A DNA stretch of 64,000 nt, from positions 124,001 through 188,000 of the forward strand of contig JAUIJE010000006.1 of NCBI GenBank assembly GCA_030431455.1. Direction: 5' to 3'. Shown in pieces: positions 19,087 through 23,867 of this stretch. This stretch comes from a bacterium. GTDB taxonomy: Bacteria; Myxococcota; UBA727; JAUIJE01. The translations under genes were made by a program, and so were the position numbers. The notes under the pieces were generated by a model. That model was not told where the DNA came from, searched no databases, and saw only the letters and a program-made list of their open reading frames with translations. The first letter of the stretch is position 1. Every line of letters starts with the position of its first letter.

Positions 19087-19794
19087 ATGGAGCTTCGTCG
19101 CGAATTGTTGCTCACCATGGGCGCCCTCGTCGTGCTCAACCTGTTGCTCGCCTTGGGGGCCATCGGCCTGTTTGTGCGCATGGGGCCGGCCATCGATCGC
19201 ATCCTGCAAGAGAACGTCTACTCCATCGTCGCGGCCGAAGAGATCCTCGGCGCCCTGGCCGCGCCCCGGGAGGGCGCCGACCGCGCGACCTGGGCGTTGA
19301 CCGATGCCGACCGGCGACAGGTGCTCGAGGCCCTGGCCAACGCCGAGCGCAATGTGACTGAAAAAGCCGAGCGCCCGGTGTTGCACACCCTGGAGCGGGT
19401 GTTGCCCGCGGCGATGAACGGCGAAGCCACCGCGCGCCGACAAGCGGTGGCCGCGGTGGGCGAGCTCATCCAGATCAACCGCCAGGCCATGCGGGTGGTC
19501 GATGAGGAAGCGCGCCGGCTGGGCACCGCCGGGGCCTGGGCCGCGGTGTTCGTGGGCTTTTTGTCCTTCTTGCTCAGCGTGCTGGTGTTCGTCCGGTTGC
19601 AGCGCCGGGTGGTGCGCCCGCTGCTCGACCTGCACGACGTGCTCGAGGACAACCGCCACGGCCAAAAGCTGCGCCGGTGCCGCCGGACCGAAGCCCCCCG
19701 AGAGGTCATCCAGGTCAGCGAAGCGGTCAACCACCTGCTCGACGAACGCCTGCAGCGCCGGGCCGACCGCGGCGCGGCCGACGCGGGGACCTGA
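19087..19794 (+). CDS. membrane sensor with periplasmic helical domain and HAMP, no output domain
   Basis: 235 residues. A first membrane helix (LTMGALVVLNLLLALGAIGLFV) precedes an alpha-helical extracytoplasmic domain (residues 35-150) of the four-helix-bundle kind. A second membrane helix (AAVFVGFLSFLLSVLVFV) and a HAMP-like segment (RRVVRPLLDLHDVLEDNRHG) follow, and the protein ends after a short coiled coil. There is no kinase, methyl-accepting or cyclase domain, so it is a full sensor input without an output. It may be a truncated histidine kinase kept for signalling to KtrA, or an anti-factor-type partner. It starts 2 bases after the KtrA stop. Confidence 0.6.
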   Translation: MELRRELLLTMGALVVLNLLLALGAIGLFVRMGPAIDRILQENVYSIVAAEEILGALAAPREGADRATWALTDADRRQVLEALANAERNVTEKAERPVLHTLERVLPAAMNGEATARRQAVAAVGELIQINRQAMRVVDEEARRLGTAGAWAAVFVGFLSFLLSVLVFVRLQRRVVRPLLDLHDVLEDNRHGQKLRRCRRTEAPREVIQVSEAVNHLLDERLQRRADRGAADAGT

Positions 19795-19810
19795 GCCCTT
19801 CGCGGCCAAC

Positions 19811-19827
19811 TTGGCACGAAAGCCGCA
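19811..19827 (+). promoter_or_regulatory. weak sigma-54-like promoter
   Basis: The sequence TTGGCACG followed by AAAGCCGCA has GG and GC pairs ten bases apart, as in -24/-12 promoters. The -12 part deviates (CCGC in place of TTGC). The GC pair is 22 bases upstream of the ATG of the small membrane protein. It is much weaker than the site at 20307. Confidence 0.25.
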
Positions 19828-19848
19828 GACCTCGGGGCCGGAGGTGAC

Positions 19849-20277
19849 ATGTCCACACCGGTGTCTTCGGTCTTGTTGTTTGTGCTCGCGGCCGCGCTCG
19901 GCGCCTGGGGCCAATACCTCTACCGCGAGGGTGCAGGGGCATTGTCACAAGGCGTGCTCGCGTTCGTGACCAGCCCCCACATGTGGGGCGGCGTTGTCTG
20001 CTACGTCGCGGTGATGGCGCTGTTCGTGGGCGCGTACCGCATCGGGGGATCGTTGGCGGTGCTGTACCCGGTGTACGCGAGCACGTTCGTGTTCGGGCTG
20101 CTCATCGCGGCCCGGACCGAAGGGGTGCGCCTTTCGTGGGTGCACGCGGCCGGGGTCGTGCTCCTGATCGGGGGCATGGCGTTGCTCGGGGCCGGGCAAA
20201 AAAAGGGCGCGGGCCCAACACCCTCTGCACACCAGGCGGCGTCAACGCGCCCCGCGGTTTCACACCCGCGGGGTTGA
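19849..20277 (+). CDS. small four-helix membrane protein, SMR/EamA-like
   Basis: 142 residues with four hydrophobic helices (about 8-27, 42-62, 66-88 and 98-118), which is the size and topology of small multidrug-resistance or half-EamA transporters. GQYLYREGA in the first loop and YPVYASTFVFG before the third loop resemble that group; the second segment is rich in Gly and Ala. The last 25 residues are Pro/Ala/His-rich and probably disordered. GGAGGTGAC precedes the ATG. A lipid-precursor flippase role (ArnE/F-like) is possible given the lipid genes downstream, but this is only inference. Confidence 0.55.
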   Translation: MSTPVSSVLLFVLAAALGAWGQYLYREGAGALSQGVLAFVTSPHMWGGVVCYVAVMALFVGAYRIGGSLAVLYPVYASTFVFGLLIAARTEGVRLSWVHAAGVVLLIGGMALLGAGQKKGAGPTPSAHQAASTRPAVSHPRG

Positions 20278-20306
20278 GCCCGGGGCGGCGGGGCGGGGTT
20301 TTGCCC

Positions 20307-20323
20307 CTGGCACGCGGATTGCG
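20307..20323 (+). promoter_or_regulatory. sigma-54 (-24/-12) promoter for phospholipid genes
   Basis: CTGGCACG, four bases, then TTGCG: this matches the sigma-54 consensus (YTGGCACG-N4-TTGCW) at every position except the last. The expected start point lies near 20334, about 26 bases before the ATG of the CDP-alcohol phosphotransferase. Sigma-54 promoters need an enhancer-binding ATPase; no such gene is in the window. The site is on the same strand as the cdsA- and plsC-like genes it would serve. Confidence 0.65.
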
Positions 20324-20359
20324 TTGTGGCGGGAGAACGCCCCCGCGGTGGAGGACGCA

Positions 20360-20974
20360 ATGTCTTTGTATTTGCTCAAGCCCCGATTTCAGCGATTGCT
20401 GCGGCCCGCGGTGGATGGGCTCGCCCGCGCCGGGGTCAGCCCCAACGCGGTCACCACCAGTGCCATTGTGCTCAGCCTCGCGGTGGCCGCGGGGGTTCCT
20501 GGGGCGGCGGCGGAGGTGGGGGGCCTGGCGTTTTTGGCCCTCCCCGCCGCGCAGCTTTTGCGCATGGCGCTCAACGCGGTCGACGGGGAGATCGCCCGGC
20601 GCCACCGGCGCAGCACCCGCGCGGGGGCGGTGCTCAACGAAGCGGGCGACGCGCTCAACGCGGCGCTGTTCGTGGTGCCGTTTTTGTTTGTGCCCGCGGT
20701 GCCCGCGTCGGGGGTGGTGTTGTTGGCCGCGGCCTGCGTGGCCAGTGAATACGCGGGGGTGTTGGCCTGGGCGGTCACCGGGGTCCGCCGGTACGACGGG
20801 CCGTTGGGCAAGGCCGACCAAGCCTTGGCCACGTCGGGGCTGGCGTTGTGGGTGGCGGCGGGCACCCCCGGGCCGGCCGGGCTGGGGACAGCCCTGGTGG
20901 GGGCGTTGGTGGTGCTGGCGGTGATCACCGCGGGGCGGCGGTTGCGCCTGGCGCCGGGTGGGGTGAAGGCATGA
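20360..20974 (+). CDS. CDP-alcohol phosphotransferase, YnbA-like variant
   Basis: 204 residues with about six membrane helices. It exchanges the CMP of a CDP-alcohol for another alcohol in phospholipid synthesis. The family motif is present near residues 74-98 as DGEIAR, eight residues, then GAVLNEAGD. The usual motif ends G-x3-D-x3-D; here the first of those two Asp is Asn, as I recall for YnbA-like members of the family. GGAGG sits 5 bases before ATG 20360. The stop overlaps the start of the cytidylyltransferase gene, so substrate (CDP-diacylglycerol) and user enzyme are made together. Confidence 0.8.
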   Translation: MSLYLLKPRFQRLLRPAVDGLARAGVSPNAVTTSAIVLSLAVAAGVPGAAAEVGGLAFLALPAAQLLRMALNAVDGEIARRHRRSTRAGAVLNEAGDALNAALFVVPFLFVPAVPASGVVLLAAACVASEYAGVLAWAVTGVRRYDGPLGKADQALATSGLALWVAAGTPGPAGLGTALVGALVVLAVITAGRRLRLAPGGVKA

Positions 20975-21921
20975 TCGGCTTGTATTTGGCATTGGGTCAG
21001 CTGCAGGCGCCGGTGCAGTTCGTGTTGGGGTTGGCGGCGTTTTTGGCCGCGGTCACCGGGACCCTCGAGGTCACGGCGGGGCGATGGCCCCGGCCGCGGT
21101 TCGAGGAGATCTCCGCCCGGTTGGTGACGTGGTGGGTGTTGCTGGCGGTGTTCGCGGGGGCGGTGGTGCTGTGGCCGCCGGGTCTCATCTTGTTTGCGCT
21201 GGTGATGAGCTTGTGGGGGCTGCGGGAGTTCTTCGCGATGATGCCCTATCGCATGGCCGACCGGCGCATCTACGCGCTCGCGTTCTTGGCGGTGGGGTTC
21301 CAGTATCTTTGGGTTGCGCTCGACTGGTACGGGATGTTCATCATCTTTGTGCCCCTCTACTGTCTGTTGTTGGTGGCCCAGCAGGTGACGTTCCTCGAGC
21401 AGCCGCAGGGGGCGTTCGCCACGTTGGGCCGGGTGCAGCTCGGGTTGTTGTGGGTGGTGTTCTGCTTGAGCCACGCCGCGTACTTGTTGGTGTTGCCGGG
21501 CGGCGGTCCCTCGTCGGAGGGATTGGGGTTGTTGTGTTTCGTGGTGGTGATCACCGAGCTCGGCGACGTCGGCCAGTACGTCTTCGGCAAGGTGTTCGGC
21601 CGGACCCGGGTGCTGCCGGTGGTCTCGCCCAACAAGACCCTCGCCGGCGTGTTCGGCGGGGTCTTGGTCTCGGTGGGGCTGGCGGTGTGGTGGGGCCCCT
21701 GGTTGACCCCGCTGTCGACGGGCATGTCCGCCTGGATGGGCGTGCTCATCGGGCTCGGGGGCTTCGTCGGCGACGCGGCGATGAGCGGGCTCAAGCGCGA
21801 GCTGGGCGTCAAGGACACCAGCGCGGCGCTCCCCGGTCACGGCGGGGTGCTCGACCGCATCGACTCGCTTCTGTTCACCGCTCCGCTGTTCTTCCACGTC
21901 GTGCGCTATGTGCACTATTAG
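20971..21921 (+). CDS. cdsA: phosphatidate cytidylyltransferase
   Basis: 316-residue integral membrane enzyme that makes CDP-diacylglycerol from phosphatidate and CTP. The C-terminal signature is intact: SGLKRELGVKDTSAALPGHG near residue 271, followed by GVLDRID. VVSPNKTLAGVFGG near 222 is the other conserved loop. About eight helices precede it. The ATG overlaps the previous stop. E. coli has a parallel pair (ynbA-ynbB) in which a variant CDP-alcohol transferase sits beside its own cytidylyltransferase, so this may be a second, specialised CDP-DAG supply rather than the housekeeping enzyme. Confidence 0.9.
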   Translation: MIGLYLALGQLQAPVQFVLGLAAFLAAVTGTLEVTAGRWPRPRFEEISARLVTWWVLLAVFAGAVVLWPPGLILFALVMSLWGLREFFAMMPYRMADRRIYALAFLAVGFQYLWVALDWYGMFIIFVPLYCLLLVAQQVTFLEQPQGAFATLGRVQLGLLWVVFCLSHAAYLLVLPGGGPSSEGLGLLCFVVVITELGDVGQYVFGKVFGRTRVLPVVSPNKTLAGVFGGVLVSVGLAVWWGPWLTPLSTGMSAWMGVLIGLGGFVGDAAMSGLKRELGVKDTSAALPGHGGVLDRIDSLLFTAPLFFHVVRYVHY

Positions 21922-21954
21922 AGCGCATCTCAAAATCGAAGATGCAGTGCGCTC
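21921..21954 (+). other. stem-loop between cdsA- and plsC-like genes
   Basis: Arms GAGCGCA and TGCGCTC enclose 20 bases, with an inner TCT/AGA extension. It begins on the last base of the cytidylyltransferase stop. No T-run follows, so it is more likely an RNA processing or stabilising hairpin than an intrinsic terminator. Confidence 0.3.
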
Positions 21955-21999
21955 GCCAGGGCCCTCGACCAGGCCACGACGAGCGCCCCGAGGATAGAG

Positions 22000-22647
22000 A
22001 TGTTTCGAGCTTGGTTGTTCACCTGGTTGGTCCGTCCGCTGCTCACCGTGTGGTGCGGCTTTCGCGTCGTCGGCGCCGCGCACCTGCCCCGCACGGGGCC
22101 GGCCTTGGTGGTGGCCAACCACCAGAGCCACCTCGACATCGTGAGCGTGCTGTGCGCGTTCGATCGCACGGCCCGCCGCCGGGTCTACGCCGCGGCCGCG
22201 GCGGACGTGTTCTTCCGCGGGCCGGTGCGCGCGTTCCTCACCCGGCTGCTGTTCGGGGCCCGCCCGGTAGAGCGCGACGGCGAGGGCGACCTCGACCAAC
22301 GACTGGCCCCGGTGCGCCGGGTGCTCGAGCGGGGGGGCATCGTGGTCCTGTTCCCCGAGGGCACGCGCGGTGATCCCCGGGTGGCCCAACCGTTTCGGCG
22401 CGGTGGGTTGGCCTACCTGTGCAGTCACATGGACGACCTCGCGGTGGTCCCGGTCTACCTCGCGGGGCCGGAGCGGGCCATGCCCCGGGGGACATGGCTG
22501 CCGCTGCCGTCGCCCATCGAGGTGCGGGTGGGCCCGGCGCTGCCACCGTCGGCCCCCGACGACGTGGCCCTCACGGCGCAGCACGCGGTTTCGCTCCTCG
22601 CCCATCCCCCCGGCCCGGCCCCGGAGGTGCGTCATGCGGCGTCGTGA
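22000..22647 (+). CDS. lysophospholipid acyltransferase (PlsC family)
   Basis: 215 residues. The acyltransferase motif HX4D is present as NHQSHLD near residue 47, and the glycerophosphate-binding motif as FPEGTRG near 125. A hydrophobic N-terminal helix (WLFTWLVRPLLTVWCGF) anchors it to the inner membrane. It acylates lysophosphatidate or a related lysolipid to give phosphatidate, the substrate of the neighbouring cytidylyltransferase. Gap from that gene is 78 bases with a hairpin. The stop overlaps the start of the next gene by 14 bases. Confidence 0.88.
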   Translation: MFRAWLFTWLVRPLLTVWCGFRVVGAAHLPRTGPALVVANHQSHLDIVSVLCAFDRTARRRVYAAAAADVFFRGPVRAFLTRLLFGARPVERDGEGDLDQRLAPVRRVLERGGIVVLFPEGTRGDPRVAQPFRRGGLAYLCSHMDDLAVVPVYLAGPERAMPRGTWLPLPSPIEVRVGPALPPSAPDDVALTAQHAVSLLAHPPGPAPEVRHAAS

Positions 22648-23377
22648 CCTCCTGACCGGCGTTTCCGCCATCGGCCTGGGCGCCCTTTTGCCCGCCCCGG
22701 CGAAGGCCCGCCCGTCGACGTGGACCGGGCGGCGCTTTTCCCTGTCCGCCGCGCGGGGGCTCGAGGCCCAGCTGTCGGCCGCGGCCGTGGCCGCGCCCAC
22801 CCCGGTCGCGCTCGTCGACGCCGCCCGCGGCTGTTTGTGGCGCGGGTTGGTCGAGACGATGTTCACCGGGCGCGCCGACGCTGCGGTGTACGAGCGGGGC
22901 CAGGCCTTTGCCGAACAATGCCAACGCATCGCAACCGCCGACGCCGGCGGCTACTTCTTCGAGGCCATCCACCGGGCCAAGCGGGCGGAGATCCGCGGGG
23001 TGGTGGCCAGCGTGTTCGAGCTGCCCACACTCCAATCGTTGATGGGCACCGTCGACCGGCTCGCCCCGGGCTACGGGTTTGGCGGCACCGCGCGGTTTTG
23101 GGGGGCGGTGGCGGCCAAGACCCCGGCCTTCTTGTTGCGGCTCAAAGGCTCGTCCCTGGACGAGGGCGACGCGTATTTTCGAAGGGCGATCCAGACCGCG
23201 CCGGGGTACGCGGGCAACCACGTGCTCCGCGCCCCCTTGCTGGCCCGGATGTCCGGTGACCGCGCCGCCCGCGACAGCCTGCGCCGGGCGGCGGCGATGC
23301 CCCGCGACGACAACCCCGCGATCGAAGCCTGGAACCGCCTGTACCGCGAGCAGGCCCGCCGGGCGCTCGCCCGGTGA
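22634..23377 (+). CDS. Tat-exported TatT-like helical repeat protein
   Basis: 247 residues. MRRRDLLTGVSAIGLGALLPAPAKA is a twin-arginine-type signal (pattern RRxDLL, then a hydrophobic core and AKA cleavage site). The mature part is helical with TPR-like spacing; YGFGGTARFWGAVAAKTPA and DAYFRRAIQTAPGYAGNHVL resemble the TatT family of TRAP-transporter-associated periplasmic proteins. No TRAP permease is near. Start ATG 22634 lies within the end of the plsC-like gene, so translation is coupled and the product may act on envelope lipids. Function is not established. Confidence 0.55.
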   Translation: MRRRDLLTGVSAIGLGALLPAPAKARPSTWTGRRFSLSAARGLEAQLSAAAVAAPTPVALVDAARGCLWRGLVETMFTGRADAAVYERGQAFAEQCQRIATADAGGYFFEAIHRAKRAEIRGVVASVFELPTLQSLMGTVDRLAPGYGFGGTARFWGAVAAKTPAFLLRLKGSSLDEGDAYFRRAIQTAPGYAGNHVLRAPLLARMSGDRAARDSLRRAAAMPRDDNPAIEAWNRLYREQARRALAR

Positions 23378-23444: not shown

Positions 23445-23867
23445 ATGGCCCGGGACCTGACCAGCCGCATCAAAGCCGCCCGGCACGCGGTGGCGCTCGC
23501 CCGCCGCCTGCTGGCCGAGCATGGCCCGCTCCATGTCAAAGGGGACGAGATGTTCGCCGGGGCCACGTTGCTCAACGGGGACGAGAGCATCGTGGACGCG
23601 GTCTACGAGGAGACCTTGTTCGGCTGCACCATTTTCCTGGGCCCGGTGCGCATCGCCACCCGCGCCACCGCCAAGGGCACGTCCCGCCGGGCGCTTTACA
23701 CCCGGGCCAACGACATGATCATCGCCCACGTGCTCGAGGGCGGCGAGGTCTTCGCCGGCCAAACAGAGACATTGGGAAAATCCTGGGCCATCGTCTACGA
23801 GCCCCTGGACGATGCCCAGGGCCATCGCATCGGCATGATCGCGGGCTACCGCGAACTGCTGGGCTGA
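23445..23867 (+). CDS. soluble single-Cache-like sensory protein
   Basis: 140 residues without signal sequence or membrane helix. The core (VKGDEMFAGATLLNGDESIV, TIFLGPVRIATRA, VFAGQTETLGKSWAIVYEPL, RIGMIAGYRELLG) follows the pattern of sCache_3-type ligand domains: the YEPL and GxIxG parts are typical of the C-terminal strands. Cache domains normally face the periplasm, so a free cytoplasmic copy is unusual. GGGGAGGAGG precedes the ATG and gives a strong start. Converges on the PilZ gene with a 10-base gap. Ligand unknown. Confidence 0.6.
   Translation: MARDLTSRIKAARHAVALARRLLAEHGPLHVKGDEMFAGATLLNGDESIVDAVYEETLFGCTIFLGPVRIATRATAKGTSRRALYTRANDMIIAHVLEGGEVFAGQTETLGKSWAIVYEPLDDAQGHRIGMIAGYRELLG

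Follow-up and report, generated by a model that had tools for sequence, protein, structure and literature searches.

A candidate sigma-54-dependent ynbA-ynbB-plsC-tatT operon predicted to serve a side branch of phospholipid synthesis

Four genes on the same strand, encoding (i) a YnbA-like CDP-alcohol phosphotransferase homologue, (ii) a CdsA, (iii) a PlsC-like acyltransferase and (iv) a TatT-family protein, are closely spaced in the analyzed window, a 64-kb stretch of genomic DNA (Table 1). The ynbA stop codon overlaps the ynbB start codon (ATGA), a gap of 78 bases separates ynbB from plsC, and the start of tatT overlaps the end of plsC by 14 bases; tatT, which is absent from the first-pass annotation, is probably the fourth gene of the operon. 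The ATG at 20360 is probably the right start of ynbA, since the protein aligns with E. coli YnbA from residue 1. Assignment of TatT corresponds to a PF16811 match of 37.3 bits (gathering score 26.5 bits) covering residues 90-246, and the N-terminus of the product carries what we take to be an RRxLL-type motif. The small membrane-protein gene upstream of ynbA was left out of the operon, and tblastn yielded no match for it in 80 related loci. Behind the operon, across an AT-rich gap, a small single-Cache-domain protein (PF17202) is encoded at 23445-23867.

Table 1 Features of the ynbA-ynbB-plsC-tatT locus (positions refer to the window)
Feature	Position	Strand	Basis or remark
Sigma-54 (-24/-12) promoter element TGGCACG-N4-TTGC, TGGCACGCGGATTGC (candidate)	20308..20322	+	Sequence reading and pattern scans
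Predicted transcription start	20334	+	12 bases after the -12 C; inferred
Ribosome-binding sequence GGAGGA	20350..20355	+	Sequence reading
Perfect inverted repeat CCCCGCGG-N8-CCGCGGGG	20250..20273	.	Centre ~72 bases upstream of the predicted start
YnbA-like CDP-alcohol phosphotransferase homologue, 204 aa; N72 D75 N93 D97, Q154 A101	20360..20974	+	Pfam CDP-OH_P_transf, above cut-off
YnbB-type CdsA, 316 aa	20971..21921	+	Pfam CTP_transf_1, above cut-off
PlsC-like acyltransferase, 215 aa	22000..22647	+	Pfam Acyltransferase, above cut-off
TatT-family (PF16811) protein, probable fourth operon gene	22634..23377	+	Pfam TAtT

The window encodes no other CDP-alcohol phosphotransferase or CdsA; the cluster, described at first as a second one for phospholipid synthesis, is therefore not a second one within the window and could be so only with respect to the genome, in which just two CTP_transf_1 matches are present. 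The CdsA of the window shares 39% identity with E. coli YnbB over 282 aa, and it aligns with E. coli CdsA and with the other CdsA of the genome only in C-terminal pieces (124 and 112 aa, respectively). As judged from these alignments, it is of the YnbB type and not the housekeeping enzyme, which supports the earlier proposal of a dedicated CDP-DAG supply. In PMC6362211, E. coli YnbB is described as non-essential and as unable to replace CdsA. TatT is described as periplasmic and as containing a hydrophobic pore, and a role in lipid carriage was proposed for it (PMC5812351); the structure of the sterol-carrier protein BstC, a member of the same superfamily, was reported to resemble it (PMC10942540).

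A structure model of YnbA, calculated from 45 sequences (mean pLDDT 93.2), finds its best structural matches in PIP synthases and AF2299, the ten best rows reaching Z values of 17.2-18.6 and rmsd values of 2.8-3.5 over 179-191 residues (top match: Z 18.6, rmsd 3.5, 191 residues) and 6wmv matching with an E of 5.7e-5. According to this model, YnbA has the six-helix fold of class I CDP-alcohol phosphotransferases. With the PIPSynth model of NCBIfam, YnbA scored 29.5 bits, far below the cut-off of 170. A named YnbA family does not exist in NCBIfam, whose best models here, those for archaetidylinositol phosphate synthase and PIP synthase, both remain far below cut-off.

The class I signature comprises eight residues described as absolutely conserved (PMC4634129), and in PgsA1 its four Asp bind two metals, with D93 as the presumed base (PMC6506517). 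Profile alignment places N72, D75, N93 and D97 of YnbA opposite D68, D71, D89 and D93 of PgsA1, i.e., the protein deviates from the strict signature DxxDGxxAR...GxxxDxxxD by Asn at the first and third Asp. Since two of the eight signature residues are missing, activity of YnbA is not certain. PgsA1 and PIPS, the best profile relatives, thus share with YnbA the fold, the second and fourth metal positions and an Arg (R195), and differ in having Asp at the first and third metal positions and Arg (R155) where the window copy has Gln.

An Asn in place of one metal-binding Asp had been pointed out in the first-pass annotation as suited to a different alcohol or mechanism. The variant is real, but it affects two Asp rather than one and is not special to the locus: the Asn pair is shared by every one of the 45 aligned members and by each of the 81 relatives whose sequence was read, among them E. 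coli YnbA (79 scored by script and two, in which the Arg of the AR differs, by eye), and it recurs in all eight plasmid-borne relatives read out of 30 found (five by script, and three by eye because the script pattern had slipped by one residue). The pattern MALNAVDG employed in the search for relatives favours the first Asn; no such bias applies to the second Asn, to E. coli YnbA or to the plasmid search. By this comparison, the Asn pair is a mark of the whole YnbA family and not of a special local enzyme. The window protein itself combines the subfamily motif (N-xx-DG ... G-xxx-N-xxx-D) with full-length similarity. Elsewhere in the genome, the five remaining CDP-alcohol phosphotransferase domains, located in four ORFs, have Asp at all four positions. 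Two such domains follow each other within one 483-codon ORF (L086/L088, G000:C8:709288-710235), each with the complete set of four Asp.

Invariant in 45 of 45 members are D97 (the presumed catalytic base), D75, the Gly/Ala residues, N29, T32, K151 and R194. R154 and D101 are each present in 44 of 45, the window copy having Q154 and A101 instead; both residues are usual in the YnbA subfamily. Inositol phosphate is bound in MtPIPS by two Arg, R155 and R195 (PMC4634129), and reading of the profile alignment equates them with R154 and R194 of YnbA. These equivalents suggest that the YnbA family uses a phosphorylated acceptor, while Q154 and A101 suggest that the window copy differs in this respect. 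Alternatively, YnbA may be non-catalytic, binding CDP-DAG or acting as a scaffold for YnbB, such that the activity of YnbB represents the output, e.g., formation of an MPIase precursor as in E. coli. Such a role would agree with Asn at two positions which bind metal in PgsA1, with the further loss of R154 and D101 in the window copy, and with the report that overproduction of YnbB in E. coli leads to more of the glycolipid MPIase (PMC6362211). It is nevertheless unlikely, as the invariance of the residues named above, from D97 to R194, is the pattern of a kept function and the family is spread across phyla. No report on the reaction of YnbA was found in the open-access literature searched, though other papers may exist.

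Among the closest known counterparts is ynbA-ynbB(-ynbC-ynbD) of E. coli, where both genes are adjacent in the same order, YnbA shares the Asn pair as well as 39% identity over 198 aa with the window protein, and YnbB is the CdsA-type protein compared above. The further partners differ: a hydrolase/methyltransferase (PF12146 plus PF12147) and a phosphatase in E. coli and also in Stenotrophomonas, PlsC and TatT in the window. For PF12147, the YnbC partner methyltransferase, no match at E 0.001 or better was obtained in the present genome. The first three genes of the window operon recur, in unchanged order, as ynbA-cdsA-plsC clusters in Staphylococcus, Kroppenstedtia, Kaistia, Kangiella, Pseudanabaena and others (11 of 80 related loci; L207), with that of Pseudanabaena, unlike the window, having PF12147 alone after PlsC. 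Among the remaining loci, nine have ynbA followed by adjacent plsC-cdsA, 32 have plsC-cdsA about 3.5-5 kb downstream, eight have cdsA on the other strand and five upstream, three are partial, and 12 have none in the DNA covered. The window TatT gave no tblastn match in any of the 80 loci, the ynbA-cdsA-plsC clusters included. No YnbA orthologue was matched in 15 other genomes of the class (0/15), so that footprinting among close relatives was impossible; horizontal gain of the operon is possible. No YnbA relatives were confirmed in viral contigs. On plasmid pNP7-2 of Moraxella osloensis (L209:3501-4778), a frame of 426 aa begins as YnbA-like and continues as a YnbC-like hydrolase, representing either a fusion or a frameshifted gene pair that is absent from the listed genes.

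In front of ynbA, direct reading reveals CTGGCACG-CGGA-TTGCG at 20307-20323 with all 11 specified bases of TGGCACG-N4-TTGC, ten bases from GG to GC, and 37 bases (20323-20359) between the site and the ATG. The near-consensus sigma-54 site previously noted 37 bases before the YnbA-like gene is therefore an exact match, and its spacing is confirmed. Sigma-54 promoters generally start transcription 12 bases past the -12 C, from which the start in Table 1 is predicted. No further exact match to the pattern is present in the window, and no sigma-70-type site was found upon scanning 19700-20500. The inverted repeat may possibly be an activator site or a weak hairpin ending the upstream gene; in GC-rich DNA such a repeat is weak evidence. 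A weaker sigma-54-like sequence (TGGCACG-N4-CCGC, two mismatches) is located at 19812-19826, 22 bases before the small membrane-protein ORF 19849-20277.

The exact pattern TGGCACG-N4-TTGC has five matches in the 7.7 Mb genome and its reversed form one. Allowing up to one mismatch, 115 places match compared to 134 for the reversed pattern, i.e., there is no excess by count. From the 110 one-mismatch places among the 115, ~3 exact matches are expected by chance, such that the number of five would alone be weak evidence; with the one-mismatch sites not over-represented by count, only location was used as evidence. All five exact matches are intergenic, compared to 10.5% of random positions. Thirty sites per pattern (30 of 115 for the sigma-54 pattern, 30 of 134 for the reversed one and 30 of 115 for a spacer one base longer, i.e., 5 bases) were examined, comprising the exact matches plus the entries at the top of the list (low-numbered contigs) rather than a random draw. 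Of the sigma-54-pattern sites, 20 are intergenic (5/5 exact, 15/25 one-mismatch) and 11 lie 10-90 bases before a same-strand gene start, as opposed to 3/30 and 0/30 with the reversed pattern and 3/30 and 2/30 with the longer spacer. These calls were made with a simple codon-usage gene finder written for the analysis, which missed ORF 19849-20277 (ending before the site) and misplaced some starts (ynbA at 20348 versus 20360), so the distances between sites and genes are approximate. Two-mismatch sites with GG and GC fixed showed no intergenic excess (7/69 versus 14/111 in controls) in a 464 kb sample, which was picked to contain exact sites and whose exact-match count is thus no rate. The genome appears to use sites of the form TGGCACG-N4-TTGC at this spacing, and their intergenic and pre-gene placement makes it probable that the site at 20308 is used.

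Two further observations concern related sites. At one exact site (L094, G000:C18:657877-657891), an activator-like gene ends before and a response-regulator-like gene starts 32 bases after the site, both on its strand and named from their translations; the identical 15-mer recurs at L093. At L116, L117 and L118 (the latter two at G000:C4:344948 and 346702), TGGCACG-N4-CTCGCA precedes related tandem genes for ~480-aa proteins by ~50 bases, possibly reflecting a sigma-54 regulon of duplicated proteins.

RpoN is encoded once in the genome (E 1.3e-61), and the sigma-54 activator domain is matched 42 times, in 36 cases at an E value below 1e-19. The window contains no activator gene, and among the matches listed the nearest one on the same contig starts ~120 kb from the site. 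As far as upstream sequences can be compared, evolutionary conservation does not back the promoter: within 400 bases before ynbA (less in some of the regions), none of 81 upstream regions, i.e., those of the 80 relatives (ynbA-cdsA-plsC clusters included) and of E. coli, harbours a site with at least 10 of 12 consensus bases (best 9, window site 11), and no such site precedes the eight plasmid-borne ynbA copies. Sigma-54 control, if real, would therefore be local to this lineage. The control by sigma-54 suggested in the first-pass annotation is nonetheless likely in view of the within-genome placement controls, the presence of RpoN and the number of activators. A link of sigma-54 to lipid and envelope genes was proposed from comparative genomics (PMC3162934).

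It is likewise unlikely that the site represents a chance or unused match, with transcription by read-through or from a housekeeping promoter missed by the simple scan. The ~3 exact matches expected genome-wide and the missing conservation in relatives would agree with chance, and read-through could be favoured by co-directional upstream genes with short gaps (TrkH, TrkA-like, sensor-like, small membrane protein) and by a stretch at 20278-20307 in which no terminator-like site was found; yet a chance match would hardly account for five of five exact sites being intergenic, for the lack of such placement with the reversed and changed-spacer controls, or for the fitting distance to the start codon.

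The locus is thus best read as a sigma-54 (RpoN)-dependent operon, ynbA-ynbB-plsC-tatT, constituting a side branch that makes CDP-DAG and a minor phospholipid (probability roughly 0.6). This reading draws directly on the placement of pattern sites before genes in the genome, the gene families, the YnbB type, the predicted fold and the motif. With respect to promoter use, operon transcription, enzyme activity, acceptor and the role of TatT, we infer the following course. The promoter at 20308 would open when required, through an activator whose gene lies elsewhere in the genome; development or stress had been suggested as the occasion in the first-pass annotation. PlsC would form phosphatidic acid, which the YnbB-type CdsA would convert to CDP-DAG. 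YnbA, with Asn replacing the first and third metal-ligand Asp, would then move the phosphatidyl group onto an alcohol, possibly a phosphorylated one, and TatT may serve as a periplasmic carrier of a lipid or fatty acid.

More tentatively, one may speculate that YnbA stands for a branch of the CDP-alcohol phosphotransferases that is widespread, has Asn/Asp/Asn/Asp as its natural metal site, hence uses metal differently, and makes an undescribed minor phospholipid. In the present organism, supply by PlsC and YnbB as well as a periplasmic lipid carrier would have been tied in under sigma-54, and the loss of R154 and D101 would reflect a changed acceptor. The YnbA family, represented in E. coli K-12 and across several phyla, is widespread but little studied. 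A family departing from the "absolutely conserved" signature would offer a direct test of metal use by these enzymes, and the sigma-54 promoter, if true, would make it possible, in one organism, to induce the pathway and find its lipid.
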